Assembly (NCBI GenBank): GCA_021613335.1
Contig: JAJTWR010000263.1
Location: forward strand, 580,001 to 644,000
Source: Whitmania pigra
Taxonomy: Eukaryota; Annelida; Clitellata; Hirudinida; Haemopidae
Reading direction: 5' to 3'
DNA length: 64,000 nt
How positions within the stretch are numbered: position 1 is the stretch's first letter; every line of letters starts with the position of its first letter. The translations under genes were made by a program, and so were the position numbers. Below are positions 6,493 through 64,000 of this stretch, in pieces. The notes below the pieces were generated by a model. That model was given only the letters and a program-made list of their open reading frames with translations. It had not been told where the DNA came from and searched no databases.

Positions 6493-6493
<1 letters not shown>

Positions 6494-31735: not shown

Positions 31736-32342
31736 ATGAAGTTCCTCATCAGTGCTTTGTTTATTACCGCTTTCCTCAACTCCATCATCTCAGGTGGCTT
31801 TCGTTAAGTGAATTGAAGCATTTCAAATATTATAAAATATTACGTGTTTTAGATTAATTTTGAAATAAACTTTAAAATTCTATCAATTACTTTATAGATT
31901 CATATTTTCATATTCATACTATAATAACTTTAATTTGTAATTATTCATTTCAGCTGAACTTCTGGATGTTGACGGCAAAGGTTGGACGGAAATACTTTTT
32001 ATATTTAAAATAGGTAATTTAAGTGATCTTTTCTGACGTGGAATTTTAAATTTCTCAGTGAACCTTGACTTGTTCAAGAGCAAACGTAAGACGATTTATG
32101 GTTATTTTAAAATTTAATTGACTAAAAAGTTTTATTTCTATTTTCATGAACGTTATTAAGATAGTGTTTCAACCTAATAAGCATAAAATGTTTGATGGAT
32201 TTAGTGAAATAATCTTTGGATTGAGTTATGAAAATATGATATCTTAATCATATACAGATATCATATATCTTAATTTAACATGATAATGTTCTCAAATATC
32301 GTCTAATTTTTTTCCCGTTAGTAAAGGAAATTTTGCAAGAAG
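31736..32342 (+). CDS. Micro-exon secreted peptide gene, copy A (5' part)
   Basis: Exon 1 (31736-31793) encodes a classic signal peptide, MKFLISALFITAFLNSIIS, ending in phase 1. Three micro-exons follow: 31954-31980 (27 nt, ELLDVDGK), 32059-32085 (27 nt, VNLDLFKSK) and 32322-32342 (21 nt, KEILQE). Each is flanked by AG and GT and is phase 1-1. The gene is then interrupted by the LINE at 32456. On the far side lies a run of homologous exons (38304-39842) with no signal exon of its own. Copy A and that run may therefore have been one gene with a duplicated exon block. The product would be a short secreted peptide of unknown function; I recognise no family. Confidence 0.75.
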
Positions 32343-32455
32343 GTAAGAATTAATTATCAATATTTTAAAGACTTTATTGAAGTTGCTATTCCAATATTTA
32401 CTATCAGAGTTACTTGCATTGTAGAACTTAAGTGACCTTTTTGTTTCAATATTTT

Positions 32456-35400
32456 CATTTAACATAACATAACATAACAATTATTTATAGTGGTTAAGAA
32501 GACCTGGATCTGTGTAATAACCACTCTTTTTAGTCCTAATAACCGAATTTGTATTTAAGTAAATTTTGAATTAATCTACTGTGTCCGCATGGATGGTTTC
32601 CTTATCTAGTTTATTCCATAAGGAAACCACCCTTGAAGTTAAATAATTGTTTTTCAAGTTTCCCGAAGCCTTCCTATATAATTTACAATCGTGCCCTCTA
32701 GTAGAAGCACTTTTTGTGGCTTCGAAAAATTGTTCAGGCAAAAGGCCTTCCCTTCCTGATAAAATTTTGAATGTCTGGATGGGGTCCCCTTTATTTCTTC
32801 TCTTTTCCAGAGTCGTTAATTTACATCTATTTCATCTTTTCTCGTAACTCAGCTTTCCAAAACCTTCTATCATCCTGGTTGCCCTTCTTTGTACTGTTTT
32901 CAACACTTCTACACCCTTTCTCAAATGAGGGTTCCACACTTGCACACAGTACTCAAGGTGTGGCCTTACTAATGCCTTATACAATCTCAGTATTACATCC
33001 TTGTTCCTACTCACTACTGTTCTCTTTATCATTCCAAGTACTCTGTTTGCTTTTTTAGCAACTTCCATGCACTGTAGAGATGCTTTTCCATTGTTCTGTA
33101 TTATTACTCCCCAGATCTCTTTCATGATTAGACTGCTTCAGAATGCTTCCTCCAAATACTTATTCAACTTTCGTGTTTTGCATAATGGAGCATTTGCTTA
33201 CGTTGAAAAGCATCCGCCAATCTTCAGCCCATTTGAATAACTTGCTAAGATCTTCCTGAAGTGTATCTACATCTTCTTGCTTGCTGACACTTCTTGCTAC
33301 TTTGGTGTCGTCAGCAAATTTTTATAACTTAGATCTTATGCCATCATCCAGATCATTTATATATATGCAGAGCAACACAGGTCCAAGCACCGATCCTTGT
33401 GGGACGCCGCTAAGCACTGGTTGCCACTCTGAATAAATTCCTCCCATGCCTACCTTCTGTCTCCTATCTGTCAACCAGTTTGTAAACCAATGTAATAGTT
33501 TGCCTTCAATCCCACATGCACTGAGCTTTTTTTGAAGCCTTTGATGGGGCACTTTATCAAATGCTTTTGCGAAGTCTAGGTACACTACATCTACAGCCTT
33601 GTCATGATCAACCCACTCATAAATTTCTTCAAAAAACTCAAGTAGGTTGGTAAGACACGATCTGTTCTTAGTAAAACCATGTTGGCTCTTCCCATTCACT
33701 TCGTTTCTTCCAAAAAAAAGTTGATACAGCCTCTTTGATCATTCTTTCCATTACCTTGCAAACTATAGAAGTTAAGCTTACTTGCCTGTAGTTGGATGGC
33801 AAACTCCTACTTCCCTTTTTGAATAGAGGAACTACTATTGCGTCTTTCCAATCTATTGGTATTATTCCTGAGTCAAATGATTTGACAAATAAGGTTGCCA
33901 ATGCTTCTCCTATAACTGTTCTTGTCTCATATAGTAGTTTAGGATGTAGGTTGTCTATGCCAGGGCTCTTGTCTACTTTCAAATTTTCCAGTTGCTTAAT
34001 TAATCCTGTTTTTGAGAAGTTTACTGTATCTAACTTTATCTCAATCTCTTGGATTTTCCTTGGCAGTTTTGGTATATTTCCTATTGTTTCCCTAGTAAAA
34101 ACTGAACTGAAATAGCTATTTAATATATTGGCTCTTTCCTCTACTGAATCAACTGCTTGCCCTTCACTATTTTGTAATGGTCCAATTTTGTCCCTTACTT
34201 TTTGTTTACATCTAACATATCTGAAAAAGCTCTTGCTATCACTTTTAACATTCTTCGCTAATTTGTTCTCATATTCTAGTAATGCTTTTTTATTAATTCT
34301 GTTTGATGTATTCCTTTGTTTCTGATATTTTTGTTTTAAATCCTTAAGCTCTCTTTCCTCTTCCTCTCCAGGTTTTATTTTTTCATTTCTCGTAATTTCT
34401 TCCATGCTTTATACTTAGCTCTTTTGCATTTGATGACCTCCTTCGTAAGCCATGGCTGTCTTTTCTGAGTTCTGCCTCTGCTTGGGATATATTTATCTAC
34501 AACTAGATTTAGCTCTTTCTTGATTATTGCCCAAGCTTCCTCTACATCAGCAGATTCTATTTTTTTTAGCTAAGTTTGTTTTCTCTAGCTCATTCCGTAT
34601 TTTATCATAGTCAGCTTTAAAAAAGTTTTTAGATCCTAGGTTCTCGTTTTTTAAATCCTCGTTGTCTAAATAAATGTTCCATCTGACAACTTGATGATCA
34701 CTTGTTCCAAAGTGTTCACCAACTGTTAAGCCTTCCACTAAGTTCTCATCTGTTGTTAATATCAAATCTAATGTGTTTTTACCTCTTGTTGGATCAGTGA
34801 TGTGCTGGAATAAGAAGTTATCATTTGTTACATTTATAAAGTTTATATCCTCAGGTTTTTCTCCTTCTAAAGTGTTCCAGTTAATATGGTAGTTAAAGTC
34901 ACCCATTACTAGCATAAATTCCTTACTGGCTTTGTATAATATCTCATTTAGTCCAGTATCCTCTTTAAAATTTGGTGGCCTGTAGCAAACCCCTAAAAGA
35001 AGTTTGAATTTACCTATGTAAATAGCACACCATAAACTCTCTTTAAAGTTTTCATTTTGAAATTCCTTTCTTTCTATTACTTTGATATGATTCTTAATAT
35101 AAATTAACACCCCTCCTGCTCCATGTCCATTTTCTTTCTGTCCCTCTCTGTCTTTCCTTAGCATCTTATAGCCATCTATTGCTAGCTCAGAGTTTTGAAT
35201 ACTTTCTTTTGCCCTTGCCTAAGTAATGCCAATTATATCTGGCTCCTCCGTATCGACAATTAGCTCAAGTTCTGTCCTTTTAGCCTTGCTTACTATACTT
35301 CTAGCATTGTCATAAACACATTTCAGAACTCTTACTCTGTCTATATCCCTACTTAAATGGTTAATTTCTAATCTTACCTCCTCCTCAGCTTGTCTAGCTT

Positions 35401-38060
35401 CATGTTGCCTGGTTGGCCCTTCACTCTGAAAATGTAGTCCCACGACTGATCTTCAGCTTGCTTTTTCTTAGCCTCTTCCAACAATTTCTTGCATTGGTCT
35501 CTTTCTGCTTTAGTCAAATCATGGCAGACAGAGATGCCTTTGAATTTGCTTTCTGCGTAATTTTGGAAGTGATTCCAAAACTAGGTTCTTTGATTCTCTT
35601 TCCCTAAATTGAATCATTAGTGGCCTTACCTCCTTTGTATCCTTACCTATCCTGAATACACTTTTGATGTCACTACTATCACATTTTACACCAAGTACAT
35701 TGTTGATGAAATGCATAGCAGTATCTCTATCCTCAGTTTTCTGTTTCGGTTCACTTTTAGCTTTGCTTTCTTCGAGCCAGGGTCGGACTGGCTTAAAAAA
35801 ACGGCCCGGGAAATTTGGTCGTGGCGGCCCACTTCATAGTTTCATACAAATTTTTTCAATAATTTCATATTTTACTTATTTTCAACTTAACTTAATTTGT
35901 ATATAGTTTTCTTTAGTTTCTATAATTACTTCATATATAATAATAAAATTTTAAAGTTAAAAAAACTACTTTAAGTCGCAAGAATCTTTTTATTTATTAC
36001 ATGTTCAAATTCGTAATTATGCAAAATAACTTTAAACAGTTAAATAACTCCTAGTTTGAACAACTTAAACATAAGAAACTCTAGAGTCTAAAATTTCTAT
36101 TCATTGTTAACTTGCATAACAGCTTTTTCATCGTTTCACTAGTCGATGCTAAAACATCAATGATTTCATTATTATTGATTCTTGAAAGAAGGTTCTTCTC
36201 ACAAGACATCAGCAAGAATGATTGTAAAGTTGATTGGCTCAGCAAATTTCTTAATCTGTTCTCACTCAGGTACTGCAATGCATCGCTAGGCATTCTTTTC
36301 AAAATTTCTGCAAAATTTCTTGGATCTAAACAAGATAAATCAGCGTAAAAACAACCATGCTCAGAGAATCTCTTTTTTAAACTATTAATTACTTGATCCA
36401 TAACCAGTGAACATTGACACAAAATTTATCTTTCGCACTTTCAAGTGGTTGGTTGGCTATAATTTTTCTTTCAAAACCGTCTGCACTTCAATGTCGATAT
36501 TTCTTTTTTCTAGTTCACTGTTTGCAATTTTTTTAATTTGTGGCTGCTTGAAAAATAGAATCAAAATTTTTATCTACTTTGCTTAATTCAGTCTTGAACC
36601 ATCTTATAGGCTCGTAGTATATCCATTCCAATTGGTTGAAAATATTCCTATAATGTGTTCAAATATTTTCAAAAATAGTTGTGCTGTTAGAATAAATTCA
36701 AAACTTGTCAATGAATCTAACAGAGCTTTTGCTCTGTATCGGACATCATTATTGAATTTTTTTGAAGTAGAAATATCATGAAATGTTTGTAGCGTGTCAA
36801 TGTACAAAAAATCGATAACTTGGGTTTCTTGAAGGTTTGATTAAGAAATTTCCAAATATTTTAGTAAGAGCTCTGCCTTTTGCCCACCAACAGGTTTCAC
36901 CAATTACAGATATGTATTTCAATTTGCTAAATTCACACCAAACAACCAAAAACTGAATCGTAAATATGATTCCCGAAGAAAGACTGCATATGCGTTTAAA
37001 ACCCCAAATAAAGTAACAACATCAACCGCTTTTTCAGTGACGTCACCCATTACCAAACTTAAGGCACGGGCATAACACCATACATGAATCTGACCCGGAG
37101 AAGCTGTATTTAACAAGGCATTGAATCTATTGTATTGACCTTGCATATTAGACGCACCATCGGTGGAATTGCCAATACATTTACTTACATCAATGCCTAA
37201 GACAAACCAAGCCACAAACCAAATCATACATTCCTTTTCCAGTCGTTGACTTGCAATTGACTGTAGCTATTTCACGTTCGTGTTAAGAAATATTTTATTA
37301 AAAAATAATATAATTTTGCGTTAAAATTGACGTTATAAATTATTAAAATTGCGTTATAACCATTGACGTCGGAAGCTTATTATATAAATATAATTAGACT
37401 CCTTATGTAATGACTTTGTTGTTTCAGTTTGGTTATTTTTAATACAACTATTATTTGAAGCTATTTATAATCAACGGTAATTTCAGTTAAAACTAAAAAT
37501 GTAATAACTTTCTTTTGGCGGTTGGCGGCCGGGAAATTCCCTGTGTCCCGGAGGCCCAGTCCAAGCCTGCTTTGAGCCTGTACAATATAATGTTGTTTCT
37601 TCTCTTTTCTCTTTCGACTTCATCCTGAGCAATGGTTTTTGCTATACTGATTGTTTTGTCCACAACTTGTACTCTGTCTTCATTTGTTTTCAATTTTGCA
37701 TCTACTCTTTTCTTTACAATTTCTGTCCATGCAAGACCCTTGCTTTTAGTACCGGTTTCGGCTGTCATGTCAACCTCGACTGAGACAAATAAGCTCTCTA
37801 CTTTCTCCTCCAGCTTTGAAACTTTATTTTCTACAAGATCTCCTCCTACTTTGCAGCTTTCTAGTCTCCAACTTTTTTTCGAGCAACTCAATTTGTTTAC
37901 TTTGTTCCTTATTGATGCCTATGAGATGTTCGACGACGTCTTTCATTCGCACACAGTTCTTGCAAATTGGTTTAGATTCAAACCCTCGACACTTCCATAC
38001 ATTTCGCATATCTTTAAAACTTCTCGTAGTCATTTTAGCGAAACTTTCACTAGTCAGACA
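32456..38060 (-). mobile_element. CR1-like non-LTR retrotransposon with nested hAT
   Basis: Minus-strand LINE of about 3.8 kb once the nested hAT is removed. ORF1 (38035 down to about 35519, split by the hAT) has a coiled-coil-like KLEEKVESL region and RRNNIILYRL. ORF2 starts with an APE-type endonuclease (35443 to 34547; GDFNYHINW, TSDHQVV), then reverse transcriptase (34405 to 33322; DKSPGIDNL, FKKGSRSLPSNYRQVSL, FAKAFDKVPH, GVPQGSVLGP) and FADDT after a stop. The C-terminal thumb is at 33125-32590 (LYKALVRPHLEYCVQVWNP). The 3' tail is (TTATG)n at 32456-32482. In-frame stops (before FADD and in the endonuclease) and frame changes make it non-autonomous now. It interrupts the micro-exon gene array; the resumed sequence at 38060 matches the exon at 39082-39114. 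Confidence 0.9.
35778..37569 (-). mobile_element. hAT DNA transposon nested in the LINE ORF1
   Basis: Terminal inverted repeats begin CAGGGTCGGACTGG (left) and CAGGCTTGGACTGG (right, reverse complement). They are flanked by an 8-bp duplication, CTTCGAGC (35770-35777) against CTTTGAGC (37570-37577). Removing the element rejoins the LINE ORF1 at YRL/EESKAKSE. Transposase remnants lie on the minus strand. The clearest is at 36919-37227 (CIGNSTDGASNMQGQYN, SPGQIHVWCYARALSLV), the RNase-H-fold region of ZMYM/DUF4371-type hAT transposases. Stops and frameshifts break it. Confidence 0.9.
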
Positions 38061-38303
38061 TAGCAGATGCTGAAGGTTAATAAGGAAATACTTCTTTTCA
38101 CTCGTTTGTTTCATGAACTATAAAATTATTATATAAGCTAAATATTACATATTATAAGTGAAGTGAAGCATTTAAAATCTTATAAAATATTACGCGTTTT
38201 AGATTAATTTTGAAATAAACTTTAAAATTCTGTCAATTACTTTATAGATTCATATTTTCATATTCATACTATAATAACTTTAATTTGTAATTATTCATTT
38301 CAG

Positions 38304-39842
38304 CTGACCTTCTGGATGTTGACGGCAAAGGTTGGACAGAAATACTTTTTATATTTAAAATATGTAACTTAAGTGACCTTTTTTTCAGTACCTCCACTGG
38401 AAGACTACGAAGATGCTAAAGGTTGTTATAATTATATCTCAATAATAATTAATAATATTAATAAACAAAATGTATGAATAATAATCGCAATAATAATTAA
38501 TTTCCCTTGTTGAATTTATGAAGTAACACCATATTATACGTGTTACATACACATTATATAACATAAATTACATACTTGCATTCCCATTTTATAGGCAGTT
38601 CGAAGACTATTATCGAAAAGCTTTTAGGAACTTATAGAAATTATATAATTGTTTTAATGATTTTATTTAAAATTTTTATATTTCTGACGTGGAGTTTTAA
38701 ATTTCTCAGTGAAGCTTGACTTGTTCAAGAACAAACGTAAGACGATTTATGGTTATTTTAAAATTTAATTGACTAAAAAGTCTTATTTCTATTTTCATGA
38801 ATGTTTTTAAGATAGTGTTTCAACCTAATAAGCACAAAACGTTTGATGGATTATACATATCCAAATAATCTTTGGATTGAGTTATGAAAATATATCTTAA
38901 TCACCATAGTTAAACAAATTTAACATGATAATGTTCTCAAATATCGTCTAAATTTTTTCCCGTTAGTAAAGGAATTTTTGCACAAAGGTAAGAATTAATT
39001 ATCAATATTATAAAGTCTTTATTGAAGTTGCTATTCCAATATTTACCATCTGAGTCACTTGCATTGTAGAACTTGATTCAGTACTTCCACTTGAAGACAT
39101 AGCAGATGTTGAAGGTTAATAAGGAAATACTTCCTTTCACTCGTTTGTTTCATGAACTACAAAATTATTATATAAGCTATATATTACATATTATACCACA
39201 TATAAACAGACATGAAACACACAATTGTTTAACGGGACATCTACAAGTTATATATTACGTGTTATACATAAGATACTAAGCATACATGCTACATATTATA
39301 CAACATTTATACAAACCTGAAAACTTGCTTTCGCATACTAATTGTTTTTAGCCGCTGTGGGAGTTGCGATTCAAGAAGTAAGTTTTTAAGAATTTATTAA
39401 TTAATATTCTATTAATTGCATCCAAAATTTTATCACTAACCACATGTTTGTGAATAAGTTATCATTGTTTTTTTTAATTACTTGTCTTTAATATTTTTTA
39501 ATAATTTGTATTACATGTTTTTAGGAGCTGCAAAAGGTGACTGATGGCATCTTTACATTAAATGTTAAATCCGAAAATTAATTAGTTTTATTTTTTATAT
39601 ATTTTAAAATTAAATTTTGTTAAATTTGAAATACTTCGTTCCGTTAAAAATAAATGGCAGGGATAACAGGTTACTTTTTAATTACAATTTTCAAATTTTT
39701 AATTTCAATATCAAATAAAACAATATTTAAATTAAATTACATTAATGTGCTATTTGTTTATATTTCAAGCAATAGTAAAACCATAGCGGCTACACTACTG
39801 GGGCACACTAGTGATGACGATGAAGACGAAGATGATGAATAA
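38304..39842 (+). CDS. Micro-exon secreted peptide gene, module B (no own signal exon)
   Basis: Candidate exons: 38304-38330 (27 nt, DLLDVDGK), 38389-38421 (33 nt, PPLEDYEDAK), 38595-~38620 (donor lost by a 6-bp deletion), 38710-38736 (27 nt, KLDLFKNK), 38967-38987 (21 nt, KEFLHK), 39082-39114 (33 nt, LPLEDIADVE), 39352-39377 (26 nt, phase-breaking), 39525-39536 (12 nt) and 39661-39669 (9 nt). A last exon ends at TAA 39840-39842 with the acidic tail SDDDEDEDDE. The last acceptor is either 39770 or, to keep phase 1, 39787. AATAAA lies at 39906-39911. The block repeats copy A from mid-intron 1, so it arose by duplication; whether it is spliced to A's signal exon across the LINE is open. Confidence 0.6.
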
Positions 39843-40079
39843 AACTTTTAGCGTCAATTTATCGAAAATCATAACATCTTTTGAAGAAAATGTCTGTTGA
39901 GATAAAATAAATTCCTGGCAAAATGAAACAAGGATTGAAGTCATTTTATGTTAACCGTCAAAATTCGAAAGCAATGTCTGGTTTAAAATTTGTGAAACTT
40001 AAATTTTAGTTAAAATAACAGATGCTTTAATTTTTAATATTTTGAACTTCTAAAAAATTATTACTTTAATACGTAAATG

Positions 40080-40567: not shown

Positions 40568-43500
40568 CGAGTGTGATAACTGCCCCTATTCTAGCCCCTT
40601 TTCAGGGGTATTTTGTAAAGTCGACTAAAAATCAACCGCTAGAGCTAAAAATGTGCAGATTGTTTTAAAAAATAGAGAAAGGATCAAAGTGCCAGGGACG
40701 AGCATTCAAAAAAATTTAAAAAATCGGGAACTATTTTTAATTAATGCTTGAAAACTTTGAAAATTTTTTAGGGTAGATCCCTGTGTGCGCTAGTCAAGTC
40801 ACTTACATATTTGAATTCTCCTGAAAAATATCTATCAGAATATGTATAACATGTATTTTTAATCCCCATGGACGGGGTCGAAAAAGCTTCCGATAAAATC
40901 AAAACAACTTGGGCGAAATTAGAAGATTTGCGACTAATGGAGTACGAAAAAGGCGATTATAAATCAACCAACCCAGTTAAAAATACAACAACTATTTTAA
41001 AATATAGATTACAACTTAGAGAGTCAGGGTTTACTTCTTGAAAGTTTATTAAAATTCGGGAACTATTTTTATTCAGCGTTTTGAATGGTTTAGAGCTGCC
41101 CCCGCACCCAGCCCCTGAGATGTGGTCCTATGATATAGTCGATTAAAAATCAACCGATGCAGATGCAGCAATGCCGATTGCTTTAAAAAATAAAAGAAAG
41201 ATCAAACAACCAGGGACGAGTATTCCCAAAAAATAAAAAATCGGGAACTATTATTAATTAACGTCTAAAACCTTTGAAGCGGAATTTATGATAAATCCCT
41301 GTGTGCGCTATCCAAAATAGTTAAATAGTAAAATTCCCCTAAAAAATATCTACCATAATATGTATGACATGTATTTTTTATCTACGGTATGGCGTAGAAA
41401 TCTGATATATACATGTGTGATGGTAACTTTGGTGAAAATATTAGGTTTTACATTTAATATTGAACAAATTTTTGAATCTAAAATCTAACTTCTGATTTAG
41501 TAATACAAATTTAAGATTTGCCAAAATTTATGAAATTTTATTTTTAAATTCTTAATCTGAATCTTTGGTTTAGTGCCTTTTTTTGTGCACTGAAACGCTT
41601 CTGCAACTTCCCTTTTATAAATTATTAAGACTTTGCTACAGATCTGTCTTCCCATCTTCAAATTATTTTTAATGGGCCTCCACAAGAATTTGACGAAGTT
41701 GAACCGGAAATTGAATTAGATGATATAGAAGAAGGGCCTAATTATAAACAGAGTCCCTTTTATCGTAAGTATACACTTTTGGCGAAGAGCATCAGGTTAG
41801 AACAAACCAATGCACCAGTAGGCGATGAAAATGTTTTCAAAAATATTCCTTTTGCTAAACTCTTCTTAAAGAAGCATCTTTCTATTCTTCCTTTTTGGAG
41901 CTGTTTTCCTTCTCCAAGGAAAGCACGCATTTCTAACAGCCTGGTTGAAAATGTGTTTAGGGTTGTGAAACACCAGTTATTAGAAAATAAAACACATTTG
42001 AAGCTAAGCGTGTTTGTCGATTATCTCAAAGATGAGGTTGAGGCTCGATTTTTAGAAATTAAAATGAATTTACCCAAAATATATTGCCGGGGGAGAAAAA
42101 ACCCTAGTGCTAAATGGGAACGGAGGAAGGAGAAGAGTTCTTCTTATTTCAATAAATTAAATAACTTGAAGGTCGTGAACGAACACCTTAAATTGGATTT
42201 AACAAAGGGGCTCCAGCTCAAATCGACGATCTTGAGTAATTCTCTTGTTTTTGACCCAAACTATTATAGGGGAAATCATTTTAATTCTGTGATTCTGGCA
42301 AGATCTTCAGACAATATTCTATTCTTAGAAGATTTCAGGACTCTTTTTGATGAGGACTGGTTATCTAATCTAGTTATTGATTATATTTGCCTTAATATAC
42401 TCAAGTCTCCTGACGTTACCTACATACCTGTAATGGTCAGCCACCATGCCATACGAAATGGCAAATTCGAAGTAAGTTATTTTACATCTAGAGCCATTTG
42501 CAGGTATCTCTAGTTTTTCCGCTTCTTATAAACAATGATACTCATTTCTCACGCCACGTTGTAGACCAGGTCAACAAGGAAATATATTTTTACGACCCAT
42601 TGGGTAAACAAAATATTTCCGAGCATTTCAACTTTTTAAAATTTCTTTTTTCGATAAAGATGCATTGGAATATTGTTGATGAATGGATAAAATACAACTG
42701 TGTCAATAAAAACTTCTTTAAACAAGTTGACGGCTACAACTGTGGCATTTTCTTGCTGGAGCACATTGCCGCTTTAATCCTTTCGACCCAAAAAGAACGC
42801 AGGCAAAATTTTCAAAATGTCATACTCATTTCATCGGACAGCATGGCTGATTGTTGTCTTTACTGCGGAGGACACAGGGAAGCTAAGTGGGTGCAATGTC
42901 ATACATGCCAGAGATGGATGCATGAACATTGCATCGTGAAAAATGAAGTTAAATGTGCAACCATTAACTTTGTTTGTTGTTTTTGTAGCGAATTCTTTAA
43001 ATCCTTTAAATAACTTTCCTCTCAGTAAGCATGTCTTATCAGAATTGGCTTTCATACATCTTTGCTGTTGCTTGTCTCCATTACTTAGGAATTAGGACGG
43101 CGTTTGCGTCCTGAGGTTATTCCAGTTTTTCGACAGTATTACATGTTACGTTTGAATCTTCGTTGCTGCTTTTCAAATAAATGAACAATAAAATTCTGAG
43201 TTTCAAAGTTGTTTTGATTTTATCGGAAGTTTATATGTCGGATTTCTACGCCATACGGTGGATAAAAAATACATGTCATACATATTCTGGTAGATATTTT
43301 TTAGGGGAATTTTACTATTTAACTATTTTGGATAGCGCACACAGGGATTTATCATAAATTCCGCTTCAAAGGTTTTAGACGTTAATTAATAATAGTTCCC
43401 GATTTTTTATTTTTTGGGAATACTCGTCCCTGGTTGTTTGATCTTTCTTTTATTTTTTAAAGCAATCGGCATTGCTGCATCTGCATCGGTTGATTTTTAA

Positions 43501-44075
43501 TCGACTATATCATAGGACCACATCTCAGGGGCTGGGTGCGGGGGTAGCTCTAAACCATTCAAAACGCTGAATAAAAATAGTTCCCGAATTTTAATAAACT
43601 TTCAAGAAGTAAACCCTGACTCTCTAAGTTGTAATCTATATTTTAAAATAGTTGTTGTATTTTTAACTGGGTTGGTTGATTTATAATCGCCTTTTTCGTA
43701 CTCCATTAGTCTCAAATCTTCTAATTTCGCCCAAGTTGTTTTGATTTTATCGGAAGCTTTTTCGACCCCGTCCATGGGGATTAAAAATACATGTTATACA
43801 TATTCTGATAGATATTTTTTAGGAGAATTCAAATATGTAAGTGACTTGACTAGCGCACACAGGGATCTACCCTAAAAAAATCTTCAAAGTTTTCAAGCAT
43901 TAATTAAAAATAGTTCCCGATTTTTTTAATTTTTTTGAATGCTCGTCCCTGGCACTTTGATCCTTTCTCTATTTTTTAAAACAATCTGCACATTTTTAGC
44001 TCTAGCGGTTGATTTTTAATCGACTTTACAAAATACCCCTGAAAGGGGCTAGAATAAGGGCAGTTATCACACTCG
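40568..44075 (+). mobile_element. Ulp1-bearing DNA transposon with ~850-bp terminal inverted repeats
   Basis: Left arm 40568 to about 41410 and right arm about 43230 to 44075 are inverted copies, starting CGAGTGTGATAACTGCCC on either strand. Each arm contains subterminal repeats of CCAGGGACGAG followed by AAAATCGGGAACTATT. Flanking TAGAA/TAGAC may be a decayed target duplication. The single gene inside carries a cysteine protease and zinc finger, and a transposase C-terminus-like region (SNSLVENVFRVVKHQLL). KDZ or MULE relatives with Ulp1 domains are the closest known architecture. No DDE catalytic core is visible, so it is probably an internally deleted or protein-reduced derivative. Confidence 0.85.
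41629..43013 (+). CDS. Ulp1/C48-type cysteine protease with C-terminal PHD-like finger, transposon-encoded
   Basis: Frame 41629-42471 joins 42504-43013 across a possible 32-nt intron (GTAAGT...TTGCAG), giving about 450 residues; the true start is uncertain. The N-terminal part has an acidic stretch (EVEPEIELDDIEEG) and SNSLVENVFRVVKHQLL, like the last helix region of MULE/KDZ transposases. The C48 fold follows: VFDPNYYRGNHFNSVIL, then THFSRHVVDQVNKEIYFYDPLG with the presumed His and Asp, and QVDGYNCGIFLLEHI with the catalytic Cys preceded by Gln. The C-terminus has CLYCGGHREAKWVQCHTCQRWMH..C and a final CCFC, a PHD-type zinc finger. By family it would cleave SUMO- or ubiquitin-like isopeptides. 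The frame is otherwise free of stops, suggesting a fairly young insertion. Confidence 0.75.
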
Positions 44076-44369
44076 TAGACAAAATCTAGAAATCACCTGA
44101 ATCCACAGGCAGACATGCGGATTTCTCACACAGTACCACTTTTCCACAACATCATATCTGAGAAACAGCAGCAAAAAGTCATTAAATTCTAAAATTTTAT
44201 ATGGTAGTTTTTATTTTTTTTTGTAATTTTTAATTTACACATACAAAAATAAAGATCTTAATTAACTTAAGTGTTTTTTTTGTGTTTTGACTTTGTTATA
44301 ACAGTCTTCTGTCTTTTTTCTTGTTTTTTATGAAATTCAAAACTAGCTTAAACAAATACTTTCTTTATC

Positions 44370-44963: not shown

Positions 44964-45619
44964 TTCCCAACTTTGACCCTATGGACTTAAATTCCGATCT
45001 TCAAGGTATTCGCATTTGTTTTTTATTTTATTTTAAGCTGATTTAAAAGTCCTCTAACCATCCCTCGTTATTAGCCAACGTGCAAGATGAAGTTCGGAAA
45101 AGTAAGACAAACTGTGATTAAGAATGTGTGTGTCGAAAAAAAAATTGATAAAAATAGAATTACAACTCCTTTATTGAAGTATTTTATTGAACTCATTTTT
45201 TATTTAAAATTCTTTTTAGGAGCTTTACTTTCCGATGCTGTCTTGAAAGGTTTTATTTGCAAACAATTCCTCATACAACTGAATGAAATCACTAAATGCA
45301 ATAATGATTAATGTACTGTAATTGTGATTTTTGCTTTAAAATAATTTGATGAATTTTTAGACCATCTTGGAGATAATGTCCTAGCAACTGTCGAGAATTA
45401 TAAATATTTGTTTAATATATTTTTATATTTCGTGTTATTCATTTTGCAGTTGGAATACAAGCACACGTTGGAGATGGTGAGATATTATCACTTGTTATGA
45501 AATGATTAAACATATTTATTGTAACAGCCTTTTTCTAACAATGACAATTGTGTTATTTAGATGCTTCTGCTCAAAGTAATGATGATGATGAACATGATGA
45601 AGAAGGTGAAGATGAATAA
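44964..45619 (+). CDS. Micro-exon secreted peptide gene, module E (3' part)
   Basis: Candidate exons: 44964-45005 (42 nt, PNFDPMDLNSDLQ), 45075-45101 (27 nt, NVQDEVRK), 45220-45249 (30 nt, ALLSDAVLK), 45361-~45377 (donor unclear), 45450-45476 (27 nt, GIQAHVGD) and a terminal exon 45561-45619. The last encodes ASAQSNDDDEHDEEGEDE and stops. All but the unclear one are phase 1-1, and the terminal exon enters in phase 1. Exon sequences differ from copies A-D apart from the acidic end, so this is a diverged paralogue or a distant 3' set. No signal-peptide exon is seen upstream, where the SINE sits. Confidence 0.6.
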
Positions 45620-50735: not shown

Positions 50736-50863
50736 AATGTAACGGTAATAATTTTTTTTATTTTTTTCAAATATTTTAAAGTTAAACGTTGTTAAATTTT
50801 AAATAGTTCTTTCCGTTAAAATTAATTGGGTAATATTTTTACATATTAAAATCACGTTTATAG

Positions 50864-51067
50864 GCGGTAACTCGGCCAGAGTATCAGGTTACTTTGTATT
50901 TACAATTTTCAGTGTACTCTGGCCTAGTTGCCGCATATAAACGGCATATTTCACATTAAATTAAAAAATATTTAAATTAAATTACATTAATGTGCTATTT
51001 GTTTATATTTCAGGCATGCTTAGAGGCAAACGCTGATAGCGATGACGACGAAGACGAAGATAATTAA
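50864..51067 (+). CDS. Micro-exon gene 3' module F (signal exon absent)
   Basis: A 24-nt micro-exon (50864-50887, phase 1-1) and a terminal exon (51014-51067) with the acidic end NADSDDDEDEDN and stop. AATAAA is at 51137-51142 in a 3' UTR closely matching module B (GATAAAATAAATTCC, TGGCAAAATGAAACAAGG). The terminal exon reads in phase 0 while the micro-exon leaves phase 1, so this pair would not splice productively as seen. Probably a leftover of a duplicated gene. Confidence 0.5.
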
Positions 51068-52786: not shown

Positions 52787-52950
52787 GAGTAAAAGGTTAC
52801 TTTTTAATTACAATTTTCAAATTTGTAACTTCATTATCAAATAAAAAAATATTTAAATTAAATTACATTAACGTGCTATTTGTTTATATTTCAGGCGGGG
52901 GTAAAAAGAGTGGGCACAAGAAAACATACAGGGGCTGATAGTGATGACGA
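52787..52950 (+). CDS. Micro-exon gene 3' module G, broken
   Basis: A 9-nt micro-exon (52787-52795, GAGTAAAAG between TTGGCAG and GTTACTT) and the start of an acidic terminal exon at 52895 (ADSDDDK). LINE-derived sequence takes over just after 52950 before the usual stop. It repeats module B 39550-39800 closely. Confidence 0.45.
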
Positions 52951-54480: not shown

Positions 54481-54486
54481 AAATAA

Positions 54487-54753
54487 ATAAAATATCAATT
54501 TTATTATTAAGATTAAAATAAAAATACTCACATAAAACAACTTGTCCGACAAATAGATTGAAGACGAATCTATGCAATAAGAATGTTCTGTTGGTATGTT
54601 TATTGTCATTTGTCTTATGAATGGAGTGACTGTTGCACAACTGATTGAATAAAATCAAATATTTTCATTAAAACAGCATCTTCATTGTTTGCAAAGCTTA
54701 TAAAATCTGCCTTGCAACCGACTTGTTTTAAACTTGAACAACCAACCTCGAAA
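54487..54753 (+). promoter_or_regulatory. Upstream flank and core promoter of micro-exon gene copy C
   Basis: Matches 31318-31735 with an internal deletion: ATCAATTTTATTATTAAGAT, TTGTCCGACAAATA, GTTTATTGTCA and CTTATGAATGGAGTGACTG. TATAAAA is at 54699-54705. Confidence 0.78.
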
Positions 54754-56639
54754 ATGAAGTTCCTCATCAGTGCTTTGTTTCTTACTGCTTTCCTCAACTC
54801 CATCATCTCAGGTGGCTTTTGTTAAGTGAATTGAAGCATTGAAATTTAAAAAAAAATTGCGTTTTAGATTAATTTTGAAATAAACTTTTAACTTCTATCA
54901 ATTATTTTATAGATTCCTATTATCACATTTATGCTTGAATGACTTTAATTTGTAAAAATTCATTTCAGCTGGCCTTCTGGATGTTAACGTCAAAGGTTGG
55001 ACGGAAATACTTTTTATATTTAAAATGTGTAACAGCTCGATGCGATTGAATTTATTTACATGTTATTGATATTTCTAACGTGGAATTTTAAATTTTTCAG
55101 TGAAGCTTGGCTTGGACAAGAAGAAACGTAAAACTATCACCAATTGATATCAAACAATCATTACAAGTGAAATTAATTAATATTAATTATTTTCAACTCA
55201 CCTAGATTTGAAAGTGCTCAACGATGCAGGTAATATCGAGAAATACCTGCTCAAAATAATGAATAGTGCAAAACCTTTAAAATTTGTGCATTTACGAATT
55301 ACGGGGCATTTAAAAATTTAATTGACTAAAAATATTTATTTCACTTTTCATGAATGTTTTTAAGATAGTGTATCAACTTAATAAGCATAAAATATTTTAT
55401 GGCTTTAGTGAAATAATCTTTAGAGGGAGGTACGAAAATATGATATCTTAATCATCATATTAAAAGAAATTAATATGATAATATTCTCAAATATCGTCTA
55501 AATTTTATCCCGTTAGTAAATGAACTACTGCACAAAAGTAAGAATTAACTATTAATATTTTAAAGTCTTTATTGAAGTTGCTATTAAAAATTATTTCCAA
55601 TATTTACTGCCTGAGTTACTTGCAACTTAGAACTTAAGTGACCTTTTTTTCAGTACTTCCAAATGAAGACTTAGGACATGCTGAAGGTTTTTATAATTAT
55701 ATCTCAATAATAATTAACAATATTATTCAACAAAATTTATGAAGAAGAATCGCAATAATAAAAATATTTAATTTCACTTGTTGAATTCATGAATTACCAC
55801 CATATTATACATGTTACATATATATATTATACAACATAAAATACATACTTGCATTCCCTTTTTGTAGGCAGTGCGGAGACTATGATAGAACAGAGTAAGC
55901 TTTTAGGAACTTATAGAAATTATATAATTGTTTAAATGTTTGTATCTGAAATTTTTGTAACTAAGTCCAAGTTTATAAATAAGTAATTATTATTGTTTCT
56001 TATTTACGTTTTTCATTTTATAATTTATATTAAATGTTTTCAGGTTTTCAGAACTCTGGACTTGGACCAAATGTTAATTACTAAAATCAATTATTTATTA
56101 ATTTTTTAATAAATCTTATTTGAAATTAAATGTTGCTAAATTCAAAACACTTCGTTCTTTCATTTTCCATGAAAATTAATTGCGTAATATTTCTTTACAA
56201 TAAAATTATTTTTGCAGGAAACTTCGTGGATCTAAAAGGTTAATTTTTGAGTACAAATTTGTAACATTAATTTCAAAAATATTTAAATGCCATTAAATTG
56301 TTATTATTTTACTTCAGTCGTCTTGCCAGGCGTTGAAGAGCTGGCGAGATCTTCATTGCTGATAAATTATTATTTATTGAATAATGTATTCAAATAAATA
56401 TTTTATTAATTAATTTACTTAAATAAATAATTTAGAGTTGTTAAAAATATTTCTAGCTGAATAAATATTATAAGTTGACTAAAAATATCATTCTTGAGTT
56501 AAATTTATTTCTTTAGTTCAGACAACTCTGCATCCACTGGTAGCGATGACGACGATGATAAAGGAATTAAACATTTAGCATTAAAATTTCAAAAATCATA
56601 AAAACTTTTGAAGAAAATGAACAGTGAGATAAAATAAAC
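54754..56639 (+). CDS. Micro-exon secreted peptide gene, copy C (most complete)
   Basis: Exon 1 (54754-54811, MKFLISALFLTAFLNSIIS) is followed by 54969-54995 (27 nt), 55101-55127 (27), 55206-55229 (24), 55517-55537 (21), 55654-55686 (33), 55868-55894 (27) and 56044-56084. The last ends NSGLGPNVNY-stop, with AATAAA at 56108-56113. All internal exons are phase 1-1 with AG and GT flanks, giving an 85-residue precursor if all are joined. Further exons lie downstream: 56218-56238 (21 nt, NFVDLK), one starting 56318 (VLPGVEELARSS) and an acidic one from 56517 (SDNSASTGSDDDDD), with AATAAA at 56633-56638. This implies a choice of last exon. Mature segments include GLLDVNVK, KLGLDKKK, NELLHK and LPNEDLGHAE. 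Some donors (GTTGGA, GTTTTT) are weak but conserved between copies. Secretion is inferred from the signal peptide; function unknown. Confidence 0.75.
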
Positions 56640-57735: not shown

Positions 57736-59784
57736 ATAATAATAATAATAATTAATTTATAAAGCGCCATGTGCATAGCGTCAGAGGCGCCTTGTGTCTT
57801 CGCTGTCCCATGAAGTCTTGAAGAGGTGGGTCTTCAGGTGGCGCTTGAAGAGCTCCAGGGATGGCTGGGCTTTGACGGTGGAAGAGAGTCTGTTCCAGAC
57901 AGCTGGAGAGGCGATGATCTATGTACCGGTTGGTGAAGTTGAGTGGCTGACGATGAGCGAAGACCAGGTGTTTGGCGGCGATCTAGTAGATGATGGAGAT
58001 AAGGTGGGGTGGATGTTGCTAGACTGTGATATGTCATGAGGGCAATTTTGAAAGTGATACGACTATGGATCGGCAACCACTGCAATTTCTTCAGACGGTC
58101 CATGCTATTGAGGAGGGTTGAGGAGAACAAGCTTGGCAAGCTTATTTTGGACGCGTTGCAAGGATTGAATTAAAGAAGCAGATGTGCCATAAAGAAGAGA
58201 GTTACAATAGTCTAGGCGAGAGAGAACAAGGCAGCGTGCAAGGGCGGAAGTTATATCAACGGAAAGTAGCGGACGGATGTGCCGGATAGCCCATATGAGA
58301 TGATTGCATGATTTGATAATAGAAGCGGAATGTTCTTTAAAGGTGAGGTGTGAATCAAAAATAACACCGAGGATCTTGAGGGTAGTAGAGGAAGGAAGGA
58401 GGGTGCCAGCGATGCTTATAGAAAGAGGAGGCGACAGTTTTCAGGCGAGCGGGTGTGCCAATGAACATAATTTCAGATTTCTGAGGATTCAGTTGGAGAA
58501 GGCTAACGAGATGATAATCATTGATGGCGTCCGTGCACTTCCGCAAATTCTCGAGTTGATCCGAGATGTTATGGCTGGAAAGAATAGAGCAAAGACTTGT
58601 GTCATCGGCGTATTGATGGAAGGATACGTTGAAGTTAAGAATAATGTTAGACAAAGATGAAGTATAGGTTGTGAAAAGCAAAGGTCCCAAGACAGAGCCT
58701 TGAGGAACACCGGCAAGTAGTTCAACTGGAGGGGAGGAGTGATCGCCTAGTTTTACATATTGGGTTCTTTTGGAAAGGTAAGATTGTAGCCAGGAGAGTG
58801 CAGAGACATCGATTCCAAAGTCAGACTGAAGTTCTTCCAACAATATCTGGTGGTTTGTGGTATCAAAAGCAGCCGAGAGTCCGACCATCATAGCGCAATT
58901 GCCCTTGCCACAGATGTCGGGGAGATTGTTGAAGATGTGTGAAAGGGCTGTTTCAGTAGAGAAACCAAGTCTGTAGGCAGATTGGAGAGAAGAGAAGTTA
59001 GAGGATGCTGTGATATGAGGTCGAATTCTGGAGAGAATGAGTTTTTCTAGCAGTTTTGACATAGTAGAAAGGTTAGAGATGGATCTGTAATTGGTAGGCA
59101 AGCTTGGATTGAGGCTTGGCTTTTTTAGAAGGGGAAGGACTTGGGCCCTCTTGAAAAGTGATAGTACTGAAAGAAAGTTTGCTAATTTAGAGAGGATTGG
59201 GAATAGAATTAGAGGGAATTTCTTGAGAAGAGGAGTGGGGAGAGTATCGAGAGGTGATGACTTGTTGGGCAGTGAGCTAATAACATTGAGAAACTCTTCC
59301 GAAAACACAGGCTTTAGGACTAAGATAGGGGTGCCTGAGAATTGGCTGGAAAAGATGAGATGGTTGATGAGGTGAGGGTGTTTGCGATTGATTCTTGGAT
59401 TTTGGTAATCTTCGAGATGAAAAAAGAATTAAAAAAATTGACCAGGTTTGAGCACTCATCGTCGGTATAATATTGAGGAGGACGGCTGTGAAGCAGTTTG
59501 TGAAGAGAGCGCCACATGGAACGGGGGTTTACATCTGACTTGAGTTCTCCCTTGATGGAGGAGGCCCTAGAGTTTAGGATGGCTGTTTCCTTAGGGGACT
59601 TGTAGAGTTGCCTGGCGACGTCATTGCGTTGACAAATATAGCGACGTTCCAAACGCCGGCAAGCTTTCTTTACCTCGACTGCTTCATGAGAGAGCTGGTA
59701 ATTAGGTTGGTGACCGACTCGAATGGAAAACTTCCTGATTGGGGCGTGTCTGTCGAAGAGCTCCTCTAGAGGTTTATGAACCTT
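57736..59784 (-). mobile_element. L2/CR1-group non-LTR retrotransposon, 5' truncated
   Basis: The minus strand carries the ORF2 linker (59790-59320; HAPIRKFSIRVGHQPNYQLS, MWRSLHKLLHSR). The reverse transcriptase follows at 59308-58355: SSPLDTLPTPLLKKF, LPTNYRSISNLSTMSKLLEK, LSAAFDTTNHQILL, GVPQGSVLGPLLFTTY, and YADDTSL. The C-terminal LKKLQWLPIHSRITFKIALMTY is at 58139-57834. The 3' end reads GGCGCCTCTGACGCTATGCAC then ATGGCGCTTTATAAATTAAT and a TAT/ATT microsatellite tail. A frame shift separates RT and thumb. No endonuclease remains; the 5' junction abuts the next LINE at about 59785. Confidence 0.9.
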
Positions 59785-61903
59785 ATACATCCTTTTATTA
59801 GTTCATTATTGTTACTGTTTGTATTATTATTTATATAATGACGTATGCGATAAATTATGCCAATATTTTTAGAAATCTTTGCCGCTATATACTGAATATG
59901 TTGCTTGAATGAGAGATGTTGGTCTATAATGACTCCAAGAAATTTACATGTTTCGACACGAGAAGTAACGGAATTACTAATATAAATGTTACAATCATCC
60001 ATGGGGAATTTCTTCCTTGCTTTTGCTTTATGGAAAAACATATATACGGTTTTTTTAATGTTGAGAGACAAGAGGTTTGCCCTGAACCATTCTGCCAACT
60101 TTTCAAGCTCAGTATTCATGGTAGAGGAGAGTTCAGCAATATTATTTCCAGACAGAAAAACGTTTGTGTCGTCTGCGAACAGTAAGTACTCAAGACGATC
60201 AAAGCGCAAGTCATTGATGGTGACCCGTCATAACAGCCCGGCGTCAAAATTTTCGAAATATATGGATTGGCCGATAATTAGCGATGTTTTCCTTGGAGTC
60301 TGATTCATGCAGCGGAATAACTTTGGCAATTTTTAAGTCATCGGGGAAGATACCGAAGGAGAACGAGCAGTTGACAAGTGCAGCAATGATATGGGCAATC
60401 TTAGAAACGCCTTCCTCCGCATGCATTCTAATGAGCGAAGAAAGTAATCTGCTGTAATTAAGAACACCAGCATTGAACGAGAAGTAGATGGAAAGATGAT
60501 CCGAAATGTCGTCTACTATAATTTTTGAAAAACTGTTTCTGTCAAATACGTTCATGAAGATGTTATCGATAACGGTCGCGCTCTTTGATGTTATTCTTGT
60601 TGGTTGATCTATTTTAGGATGCAGGCAATGACTTGACAATGTCGTCAAGAACTCCTGTACCGAGGTGGAATCCCTTGTTACGTCCAAATTGAAGTCTCCT
60701 AACAATACGCAATCTCCATTTTTCATGATCTTATCAAGCATGACCTTGAGTTCCTCATTAAATAGTTGCAAGTTGCTTTTAGGTGGTCGATATATCACAC
60801 CGAGTGTTATCGTATTGTTGCATAACTTTAAATTTACAAACATGTTTTCAAGGGTCGCAGCAGTAAAATAATATTTTATTGAAGAAAACACAATATCCTG
60901 ATGAATGAAAATTCCAACTCTTCCACCTCTCTTTTCAGATCAACTTATTGCAACAAACGAGTAGCCATGGATACAAATGGAGCCACAATTGCCATCATTC
61001 AACCAAGTTTCAGTAACTGCAATTATTTTGGTTTTTATCCTATTATTCAGTGTAATGATGTCGTGTATTTTGTTAGGTAAGCTTCTACAATTTATGTGGA
61101 GAAATGAGATATTATTTGAAAGTTTTGGCAGCCCAGTAAATTCTTCAGGTGTTATGTATGAATGTGAGAATTCCTTATTCACAAAATTATAATCTGGATC
61201 AATCTCTTCTAATTGAAAAATGGAACGGGCCTCGAAGATTCAGTTCTTTTGAGATGCACTAAGCCGCTCCATGTCCAAACTGCTGCAATTTTTTTTCCCT
61301 AAGCAGTTTCCTTCCCTTTGCGAATATCTCAGAGTTTCTCTTTGTGAGATGTTCGTTGATGAAGATTTGTGAGTTGCCGCGTGTTTCACGTAGTGCTTTT
61401 TTTGCTGCGTAAACCTTATCTTGGACTCCTTTACCCGAGAATGTCACAACGATAGTACGGGGACCCTTACTGGCAGATATTCTATAACAATTGACGATAT
61501 CATTGCTTGTGACGTCAAGTTTCATACGTGACCTGCAACAGTCTATTACAGCACGGGTTGTGCCCTGTCTAGGTGACCTGAGTACAACCCCTCCAGCGTC
61601 CTCAGAAGTCGATGCTGCCTCAGCATATGATGTTTCAGGTAACCCATATATCATGAGGTTATTTGATCTGGATTGCATTTCTAGATTGTCAACCCCGATT
61701 TTTAGACTTCGGTTTTCTTCAACTATTTTGTTGAAACCTTCTGTCACATTTCTGACAGCCTCGGAAACCAGATTTGCAACTTCCTGTTTAATGATTTCTC
61801 TCATCATTTTTTCGATATTGGGCATTAATTTTGCTTTCACTTTTTCAGCAAATTCATCGCTGTCTACAGCAGACTCCTAGCTTTTCGCAGGTTTGCGAGA
61901 CAT
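59785..61903 (-). mobile_element. Non-LTR retrotransposon with ORF1, endonuclease and truncated RT
   Basis: ORF1 starts at ATG 61901-61903, hits an in-frame TAG at 61877-61879 and continues to 61259 with a coiled-coil start, NNLMIYGLPETS and an RRM-like SKGPRTIVVTFSGKG. ORF2 endonuclease is at 61182-60300 (LHINCRSLPNKIHDI, AVTETWLND, VIYRPPKSN, LLGDFNLDVTRD, DDISDHLSIYF), with the start of the RT at LHESDSKENIANYRPI. Then about 300 residues are missing and the frame resumes at 60209 with LEYLLFADDTNVFLS and LGVIIDQHLSFKQHI. The break at 60215-60245 holds a 25-bp copy of the minisatellite end found at 29.96 kb. Upstream to about 62070 is probably its 5' UTR. Confidence 0.88.
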
Positions 61904-62259
61904 TTTGTCAGATTAGGATTGGTTCGTAGTCGGTATTGAGTCCAAGTTCAGAATCAAACCAAACAACAAAATTTAGAAATAAACTCACCAATATACACAG
62001 CAAAAGAAGACAAATCCAACCGTATGTTTTGTTTATCGAGTTTAGTACTATAAACTGTGTTATTTTAAGTTAAGGCTCGAGAATATTACTGACACGTTCG
62101 CACGCGGGACCTCCGTTCTTATAATGAGACACTAGAGGAAATGATTCATTTTGAATAAATAGAAATAAACTTTGTGTAAGCAGAACAATGATCATCATTT
62201 GCACAATCATTTATCACAGAAAACCAATCACATGAACTAAGTAAAATCTGAAACTTATT

Positions 62260-62480
62260 TTTACAATGAGGTGACAAGAATGTTAAGCAATACTAAATCA
62301 ATTATTTATGAAATGTTATCAGAAACAAAAAACCCTCCTCCTCTGTTATTAATTGAACACTTAGAAACAAAATTATAATCTTTGATAGATACAGAATTTT
62401 CATTGTTTTTATTTAACCAAGTTTCAGTTAAGGCAATTATATTAGCACCACATTGTTCTATGAGCATTTGAATATCCAGC
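62260..62480 (-). mobile_element. LINE endonuclease fragment
   Basis: The reverse complement encodes LDIQMLIEQCGANIIALTET, then WLNKNNENSVSIKDYNFVSK and NRGGG, the N-terminal part of an APE-type LINE endonuclease. It differs in sequence from the neighbouring LINE. Confidence 0.7.
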
Positions 62481-62869
62481 AATTTATTTATTATCTATCA
62501 GATGGTTAAACAACTTTTCATTACAATCAAATTCGAACATTTTGGAGAAAGCTGTCATTTCTCCACATATGACGTGTAAAGAAAATTGCCAGTTTAACTT
62601 AAAATTTTGTTAATTTTTTTATATTGAATTTTTCGTGAATGTTTACGGAAGTGCATCTAGTAACTTGTACCTGTCAACAAGTGTCGTGTTGCGGATTTCG
62701 GTGTTGAGGTTTAAAAGGTGATAAAAGTTCTCCTCATACTTGTTTGTCTTAAATTCAATTACTTTACTGTCGTTTGTTGATGGGTTTTACCATTTTGTTC
62801 TTTGTGTATTAATTCAGACACATTTGTACAGTTTCATTAAAATTTAAGAGGTTCTGATGTAGAGAGACT

Positions 62870-62991
62870 ATTGCACAATTGATTGAATAAAATCAAATAT
62901 TTTCATTAAAATAGCATCTTCATTGTTTACAAAGCTTATAAAATCTGCCTTGCAACCGACTTGTTTCAGAGTTGAACAAATAACCTCGAAA
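62870..62991 (+). promoter_or_regulatory. Core promoter of micro-exon gene copy D
   Basis: GCACAATTGATTGAATAAAA, then GCATCTTCATTGTTTACAAA, TATAAAA at 62937-62943 and TTTCAGAG about 29 nt downstream, as in copies A and C. Confidence 0.8.
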
Positions 62992-64000
62992 ATGAAGTTC
63001 CTCATCAGTGCTTTCTTTCTTACTGCTTTCCTCATCTCCATCATCTCAGGTGGCTTTCGTTAAGTGAATTTCAAGTCTTATAAAATAGTACTTTATCTTA
63101 TAAAATAGTAATTTATCATTTTATTAAATTATGTTTTAGATTAATTTTGAAATAAACTTACAAATTCTATCAATCACTTTATAGATTCATATTTTCATAT
63201 TCATACTTGAATAACTTTAATTTGCATTTATTCATTTCAGCTGGCCTTCTGGATTTTGGCGGTAATAATAATGATAATAATAGTAGTAATAATAATAATA
63301 ATAATCTCAATATTAATTAATAATATTAACCAACAAAATTTATGAATAATAAACGCAATAATAAAAATATTCAATTTCACTTGTTGAATTCATGAATTAC
63401 CATCATATTACATAAGTTACATAAACATTATACGATATAAAATACAAACTTGCATTCTCTTACTTCTTTTTGTAGCCGGCGCGAAGAATATGATCGAAAA
63501 GAGTAAGCTTTTACGAAATTATAGAAATTATATAATTATTTCAATTTGAAATTTTTATAAGTACAAGTGTATGAATAAGTAATTATTATTGTTGATTATT
63601 TACGTTTTTAATTTTCATAATTTCTATTAAATGTTTTTAGGATTTCTGAACTCAGGGCTTGGACCAAATGTTAATTCCTAAAATCAACTAATTATTAATG
63701 TTTTTAATAAATTTTATTTTAAATTAAATGTTATTAAATTCAAAATACTCCGTACTTTCATTTCCCATGAAAATTAATTGCTTAATATTTATTCATAATA
63801 AAATTACATTTGCAGGTAACTTGGTGGAAATCATGAAAACCCATTTTTGAGTACAATTGTTAAATTTGTAACATTAAATTAAAAGATATTTAAATACTAT
63901 TAAATCGCTATTTTTTTCATTTCAGTCGCTTTGTCAAGCATTGAAGAGCTGGCGAGATCTCCATTGTTGATAAATTATTATTTATTAATTTATGTAATTA
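62992..64000 (+). CDS. Micro-exon secreted peptide gene, copy D (runs off the window)
   Basis: Exon 1 (62992-63049, MKFLISAFFLTAFLISIIS), exon 2 (63241-63261, 21 nt, GLLDFG), exon 3 (63476-63502, 27 nt, GAKNMIEK) and exon 4 (63641-63681, FLNSGLGPNVNS-stop) join in phase to a 44-residue precursor, with AATAAA at 63706-63711. Exon 2 uses a donor at a GGTAATAATAATGATAAT microsatellite that has replaced the homologous intron. Several exons of copy C (the KLGLDKKK, NELLHK and LPNEDL types) are absent, so D is a shorter variant. The next homologous exon (63816 on) has lost its donor. The VEELARS-type exon begins at 63926 and the window ends before any acidic exon. Confidence 0.75.

Follow-up and report, generated by a model that had tools for sequence, protein, structure and literature searches.

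Micro-exon genes (MEGs), which encode secreted proteins, have been described chiefly in parasitic flatworms; aphids offer a parallel. Schistosome MEGs have two longer exons flanking a central run of exons shorter than 36 bp, with the signal peptide encoded mostly or entirely by the 5′ exon, and 26 of the 33 micro-exons of MEGs 26-32 (79%) are symmetric (PMC4671649). Tandem expansion of MEGs is known in Hymenolepis, where these genes are defined structurally by at least seven exons, at least half of them shorter than 70 nt and divisible by three, with a run of at least four (PMC7653826). The bicycle genes of aphids are rapidly evolving putative effectors, overexpressed in salivary glands; they average about 17 exons and have many tiny internal ones, nearly all starting at codon position 2 (PMC9168663). 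Among the open-licence papers listed for annelids or leeches, none contained the micro-exon terms. Here, we describe a candidate family of such genes in a 64,000-nucleotide stretch of leech genomic DNA (hereafter the window), corresponding to positions 580001-644000 of contig C183 in a 178-Mb assembly.

We put at roughly 0.6 the probability that the window carries part of a real, small leech gene family that combines a conserved signal exon with tiny phase-1 exons, works like flatworm MEGs and arose independently of them. The source animal is a clitellate annelid, a leech (perhaps a hirudinid), and not a flatworm. An eEF1A from contig C11 has Helobdella robusta as the closest of the listed matches that name an organism (91%); three listed without an organism name reach 92-93%. 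A tree that includes 34 of the 120 matches listed groups it with Helobdella and those three (support 96/93; bootstrap not settled). At least four eEF1A genes, much alike in sequence, lie on C11, on a long branch relative to Helobdella. The assembly also contains 58 antistasin matches at E ≤ 0.001 and a single hirudin-family match over the cut-off, near position 784192 of contig C1, where a hirudin-like gene made up of a signal exon and several rich in cysteine could be read by eye; neither kind of match was found in 14 control genomes, which are prokaryotes as far as they are named.

The first coding exon of the family is strongly conserved. Three near-identical copies lie in the window, at the positions given in the initial annotation (31736, 54754 and 62992); each is 58 nt long, has a GT donor and exits in phase 1, and the encoded peptide reads MKFLISA(L/F)F(I/L)TAFL(N/I)SIIS. 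The exons span 31736-31793 (set A1), 54754-54811 (set C) and 62992-63049 (set D), as delimited by exon models and cross-copy alignment. A TATAAA begins 55 nt 5′ of each ATG, and from this spacing we assign a TATA box and 5′ leader to 31681-31735 (A1, within a wider repeat at 31573-31837 of repeat family D2), 54699-54753 (C) and 62937-62991 (D). These features, and all others of the family in the window, are on the plus strand. Genome-wide there are eight signal-exon copies: three in the window, two elsewhere on C183, two on contig C340 and one on contig C7. The exon is open in all eight, a hydrophobic N terminus is contained within the single 58-nt exon in all eight (judged by eye), and TATAAA stands at the same distance in seven. 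Micro-exons lie behind four of the five copies outside the window. In colinear alignments of C with E (one of the further C183 copies), with one C340 copy and with A1, the signal exon differs at 4 of 174 positions, as against 214 of 1680 in introns (P = 5e-6).

A second line of evidence comes from the reading frame of the short exons that follow. Cross-copy alignment of exon families yielded 92 internal-exon rows, of which 25 were set aside as terminal, as spuriously aligned or as having lost a splice site; the 67 that remain represent 66 distinct loci (the exon at 63476 belongs to two related families), and the near-identical tandem copies on C340 are not independent among them. The lengths of 61 of these 67 rows, all with both splice sites, are divisible by three. 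Of the 61 divisible rows, 41 contain a stop codon in phase 0 and 30 in phase 2, but none does in phase 1. A neutral simulation (42 sequences in equal-length exon groups with 124 differences from consensus, two of the sequences being from exons with a lost splice site) produced a mean of 3.3 phase-1 stops and gave zero in 2.65% of runs. Exon lengths mostly change by threes between copies (9, 21 or 24 nt for exon 8, 12 or 30 nt for exon 7, 27 or 33 nt for exon 5, 21 or 27 nt for exon 2), with exceptions in exons 6b and 7. The splice sites also score well: with matrices derived from the hexosaminidase and eEF1A genes (12 donors, 13 acceptors), the 19 chosen window exons are separated from other sites with an area under the curve (AUC) of 0.79 for acceptors, 0.89 for donors and 0.91 for both combined, and the weak donors GTTTTA and GTCTTG are found in the hexosaminidase reference too. 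The initial annotation had described micro-exons of 9-42 nt between AG and GT, nearly all in phase 1-1. Their flanks and phase bear this out, and the size range narrows to 9-33 nt; its proposal that any subset can be joined without a frameshift holds for most exons and fails for those of 26, 28 and 29 nt.

Joined in silico, these exons give gene models that resemble MEGs. Both C340 copies yield the same predicted 408-nt chain of 13 exons, encoding 135 residues with an acidic tail. Between the signal exon and a terminal exon of 50 nt, this chain has 11 internal exons, each 24-33 nt long, in phase 1-1 and bounded by AG and GT; relics of exons 3b and 4 that have lost their splice sites are omitted. 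Copy C, modeled without its 29-nt exon 7 and without a possible terminal exon in phase 0, has nine exons and 105 residues. In the model of copy F, the order is signal-2-5-3-4-5-7-8-terminal, which passes over a relic of exon 6 as well as the 26-nt exon 6b. Exon order and content thus vary between paralogues. Measured against the Hymenolepis definition (PMC7653826), the predicted C340 gene qualifies with its 13 exons and 11 consecutive symmetric internal exons, and the predicted C gene with nine exons and seven symmetric internal ones, six of which precede the skipped exon 7. All eight signal exons place the putative signal peptide in the 5′ flanking exon, the trait described for schistosomes (PMC4671649). 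The predicted leech genes share with schistosome and tapeworm MEGs a signal in the 5′ exon, short and mostly symmetric central exons (61 of 67 rows here), small protein products and tandem expansion, and the MEG-like architecture first proposed for this locus is supported, in a leech. They differ in the animal that carries them, in the acidic terminal exon and in the absence of similarity for model C. Because its descent is not from flatworms, as the eEF1A placement and the hirudin-like gene indicate, we do not class it among flatworm MEGs.

Seven complete or partial sets lie in the window, in line with the minimum of seven annotated initially: A1 (31.4-32.5 kb), A2 (38.1-40.1 kb), a module at 45 kb, two fragments (50.9-51.1 and 52.8 kb), C (54.7-56.6 kb) and D (from 62.9 kb). 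The signal exon is absent from A2 and the 45-kb module. In A1, it is followed by exons 2 (31954-31980, 27 nt), 3 (32059-32085, 27 nt) and 4 (32322-32342, 21 nt), each in phase 1-1, after which the set is interrupted by an insertion resembling a long interspersed nuclear element (LINE) on the minus strand. This insertion (32457-38060; limits approximate and set by eye, and other elements may nest within it) contains reverse-transcriptase open reading frames (ORFs) and occupies the expected place of exon 5, apparent remnants of which lie at its edges (by eye). A2 comprises exon 2 (38304-38330, 27 nt), exon 5 (38389-38421, 33 nt), an exon 6 relic without a donor (38595-38617, by cross-copy alignment), exon 3 (38710-38736, 27 nt), exon 4 (38967-38987, 21 nt), a second exon 5 (39082-39114, 33 nt), exon 6b (39352-39377, by cross-copy alignment; 26 nt and not symmetric, 27 nt in the C340 copies), exon 7 (39525-39536; 12 nt, 30 nt in the C340 copies), exon 8 (39661-39669; 9 nt, 21 or 24 nt in other copies) and an acidic terminal exon with a stop (39787-39842), whose acceptor was chosen by eye. 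Over a 1-kb stretch, A2 and copy F match at 98%.

The 45-kb module is built to the same design, with micro-exons at 45075-45101 (27 nt), 45220-45249 (30 nt) and 45450-45476 (27 nt) and an acidic terminal exon with a stop at 45561-45619; searched as DNA against the genome, it matches itself only, save for one 37-base hit. The first fragment consists of a 24-nt exon 8 (50864-50887) and an acidic terminal exon (51014-51067) that is open in phase 0 and has stops in phase 1, and the second of a 9-nt exon 8 (52787-52795). Set C contains exons 2 (54969-54995, 27 nt), 3 (55101-55127, 27 nt), 3b (55206-55229, 24 nt), 4 (55517-55537, 21 nt), 5 (55654-55686, 33 nt), 6 (55868-55894, 27 nt), 7 (56044-56072, 29 nt, either running from phase 1 to phase 0 or skipped) and 8 (56218-56238, 21 nt), a possible alternative terminal exon in phase 0 that ends in a stop (56318-56362) and an acidic terminal exon with a stop (56522-56601). 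The alternative exon has homologs in D, E and C340, and its stop and two cysteines are conserved in the four copies. A frame-switching C terminus is possible, in which the 29-nt exon 7 (28 nt in a partial set on C340) would lead into the phase-0 terminal exon at 56318. D has exons 2 (63241-63261, 21 nt), 6 (63476-63502, 27 nt) and 7 (63641-63669, 29 nt) and extends beyond the window edge; its acidic exon would begin at position 64072. Judged from their sequence, several window copies look damaged.

Copies are confined to few loci. Genome DNA-match counts are lower bounds, as the search skips very common words. A 311-base query around the C signal exon gave at least nine matches: four in the window (one without the signal exon), two elsewhere on C183 (copies E and F), two in tandem on C340 and one on C7. 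A partial third set adjoins the C340 pair. The acidic-exon stretch of A2 gave at least seven matches and a 1-kb micro-exon stretch at least 21, all on C183 and C340. These numbers are far from the thousands of copies that, according to the initial annotation, would have marked the blocks as parts of a transposon.

Bicycle genes carry paired cysteine-containing motifs, and hirudins have an acidic C-terminal tail. The mature parts of models C, A, G and F contain 0, 0, 1 and 0 cysteines, respectively, and so hold no paired motif. With bicycle genes, the leech family shares the intron phase, with internal exons nearly all beginning at codon position 2, and the abundance of tiny internal exons; it differs in having fewer than about 17 exons (PMC9168663), in phylum and in its 0 or 1 cysteine. 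Hirudin and hirudin-like factors are likewise short secreted leech proteins, and the acidic tail is a further likeness, but the 0 or 1 cysteine of the four models contrasts with the six conserved cysteine sites of hirudins (PMC10671345). No Pfam family scored over its cut-off for the three micro-exon models scanned, one of which had no match at all and two of which had sub-threshold matches only. A search of solved structures with model A returned a single weak match (E = 0.03), which we disregarded.

At one site the family's signal exon stands before a different kind of gene. On C7 (C7:198001-208000, minus strand, local positions of about 5600-10000), the signal exon and first intron of the family are followed by exons for an F5/8-type C domain, joinable to it in phase 1. 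The putative joined product, which is fucolectin-like, scores 39.6 bits against PF22633 (cut-off 27.8) and 35.9 bits against PF00754 (cut-off 28.2). The lectin exon is present there in three tandem copies, one of them behind the signal exon. If the join is right, this one model suggests that phase-1 signal exons have been exchanged between gene families. F5/8-type C proteins are among the new salivary proteins reported for Hirudo (PMC7191736), and on this basis we propose that the family may be expressed in glands. A copia-like reverse-transcriptase stretch was also noted by eye near the C7 lectin exons.

These features can be combined into a working model. A TATA promoter would drive an exon carrying the whole signal peptide, and this exon, leaving in phase 1, would be spliced to a series of exons 9-33 nt long that are, with few exceptions, phase-1 symmetric; in most sets the predicted chain ends in a terminal exon that supplies an acidic tail and the stop. 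The product would be secreted through a cleaved signal peptide, splicing of variable exon subsets may generate peptide variants, and gland cells may release these at the feeding or host interface. The mature peptide would turn over rapidly. Phase-1 symmetry means that exons may be gained, lost, duplicated or skipped without breaking the frame. Exon duplication, exon loss and transposon insertion may be tolerated because the neighboring exons stay in phase; the interrupted exon of A1, for example, could be bypassed. The copies do display exon turnover between paralogues.

A number of observations weigh against this interpretation. In the colinear alignments, the micro-exons differ at 44 of 294 positions (15.0%), compared with 12.7% in introns (P = 0.30), and the splice flanks outside AG/GT (22/198, P = 0.57) are not more conserved than introns; AG/GT themselves show 0 differences in 50 positions for those exons that were counted as kept. 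An exon-anchored count had suggested flank conservation (84/1021 versus 492/2771 and 999/3965 in neighboring intron) and was discarded because the unanchored colinear count (22/198 versus 214/1680) did not confirm it. The 200 nt 5′ of the ATG lie slightly below introns (60/596, P = 0.09). Among codons with a single change, the ratio of synonymous to non-synonymous differences is 13:61 in phase 1, 23:65 in phase 0 and 22:63 in phase 2, so that phase 1 has the lowest synonymous share of the three frames and no purifying selection is seen on the micro-exon bodies. In sum, the leader is conserved, and divergence in the body is close to that of introns and shows no excess of synonymous change. Decay would fit this pattern, as would a secreted body free to diversify, and here lies the main weakness of a functional claim.

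Other such points concern the exons and their products. Six rows are not divisible by three (26, 26, 28, 29, 29 and 29 nt), and several splice sites have been lost among paralogue exons. The tests of openness are partly circular because AG/GT and phase guided the initial choice of exons, which was made by eye. The chosen exons make up just 13 of the 40 top-scoring splice candidates, and of the other 27, eight are also divisible by three and open. The initial annotation had not recognized the peptides, and model C, compared with 5.8 billion proteins, gave seven candidates, none at E ≤ 1. An amphipathic helix was tried as a functional clue: of 500 shuffles, 14 (model C), 166 (A), 74 (G) and 16 (F) did as well as the best window or better; because the models are inconsistent in this respect, we do not press it. 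At C7, the acceptor for the lectin join was picked by eye, the acceptor equivalent to the family's first one leads to a stop after 13 residues, and TATAAA is changed.

A body that diverges like intron, with no excess of synonymous change, would be expected if most of the cluster were decaying and just one or two genes still worked (those on C340 and perhaps C), the window sets being neutral pseudogenes and fragments and the diversity of the body a product of decay. The LINE that interrupts A1, the fragmentary sets at 51 and 53 kb and the exons that have lost donors or acceptors or changed length point the same way. We nevertheless regard this as unlikely, given that the signal exon is open in every genome copy and TATAAA is kept in all but one, that zero phase-1 stops in 61 rows is a rare outcome under the neutral simulation, and that many exon lengths change by threes. 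A stronger competitor, to which we assign not quite even odds, is an ordinary small family of multi-exon secreted peptides, spliced constitutively into one fixed product per copy. It overlaps with our preferred explanation in everything save the last step. Phase-1 symmetric exons are common in extracellular proteins, the C340 copies read through 13 exons without skipping, and duplication alone can give diversity. Set against this, copies vary greatly in their exon content, and splice-site or length change has removed exons while their neighbors hold phase, a pattern that does not imply skipping within a copy.

It is also conceivable, though improbable, that the signal exon and the acidic exon are real and that the micro-exons between them are AG..GT pairs arising by chance in AT-rich introns. 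The four gene regions contain 268 AG..GT candidates of 9-45 nt, and 24% of them, the chosen exons included, are divisible by three and open in phase 1; AG..GT spacing by itself is weak evidence, and the flanks of the splice sites are no better conserved than intron. Chance pairing does not, however, account readily for the combined splice score, for the recurrence of the same exons in paralogues with lengths changing by threes, or for the 45-kb module, which shows the same pattern with almost no DNA similarity. Least probable, in our estimate, is that the blocks belong to a transposable element. Rearranged set boundaries and the LINE-like ORFs found between sets would suit this reading, but the genome matches (at least nine, seven and 21) are all on C183 and C340 apart from the one signal-exon copy on C7. 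We accordingly retain the reading of a leech family that works like flatworm MEGs.

Such a family, built on the same phase-1 logic, would mean that animals with secreted interface proteins arrive at this design repeatedly, and would draw attention to leech gland products of a class likely overlooked by gene finders. The paralogue series makes exon gain and loss directly observable in one genome. A bolder and distinctly speculative proposal, which we think is probably not correct in full, is that leeches independently evolved MEG-type genes in which a gland promoter and phase-1 signal exon can be plugged onto either a micro-exon run or a lectin domain, giving a fast-changing secreted repertoire at the feeding interface through exon turnover and combinatorial splicing. 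If true, flatworm MEGs, aphid bicycle genes and this leech family would represent three independent origins of the symmetric micro-exon solution in host-feeding animals.

Several other elements were noted in the window and the assembly. COX1 had four matches in the assembly, on contigs of 67 kb to 2.9 Mb with locus GC contents of 37-60%, none of which we take to be the animal's mitochondrial COX1; the one that was read as protein (L048) looks bacterial, and at least one contig is thus bacterial-looking. An Rfam scan of the window at gathering thresholds gave no match. The adjacent hexosaminidase gene is on the opposite strand, and we saw no evidence linking it to the micro-exon family. Between A2 and the 45-kb module, 40578-44080 is occupied by an element with long inverted end sequences (by eye); its ORFs at 41629-43013 resemble what we take to be a Ulp1-type protease with a zinc-finger tail. 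Another LINE-like element lies between C and D, on the minus strand at 58355-61876; by eye, its ORFs include a reverse transcriptase and are endonuclease-like in part.

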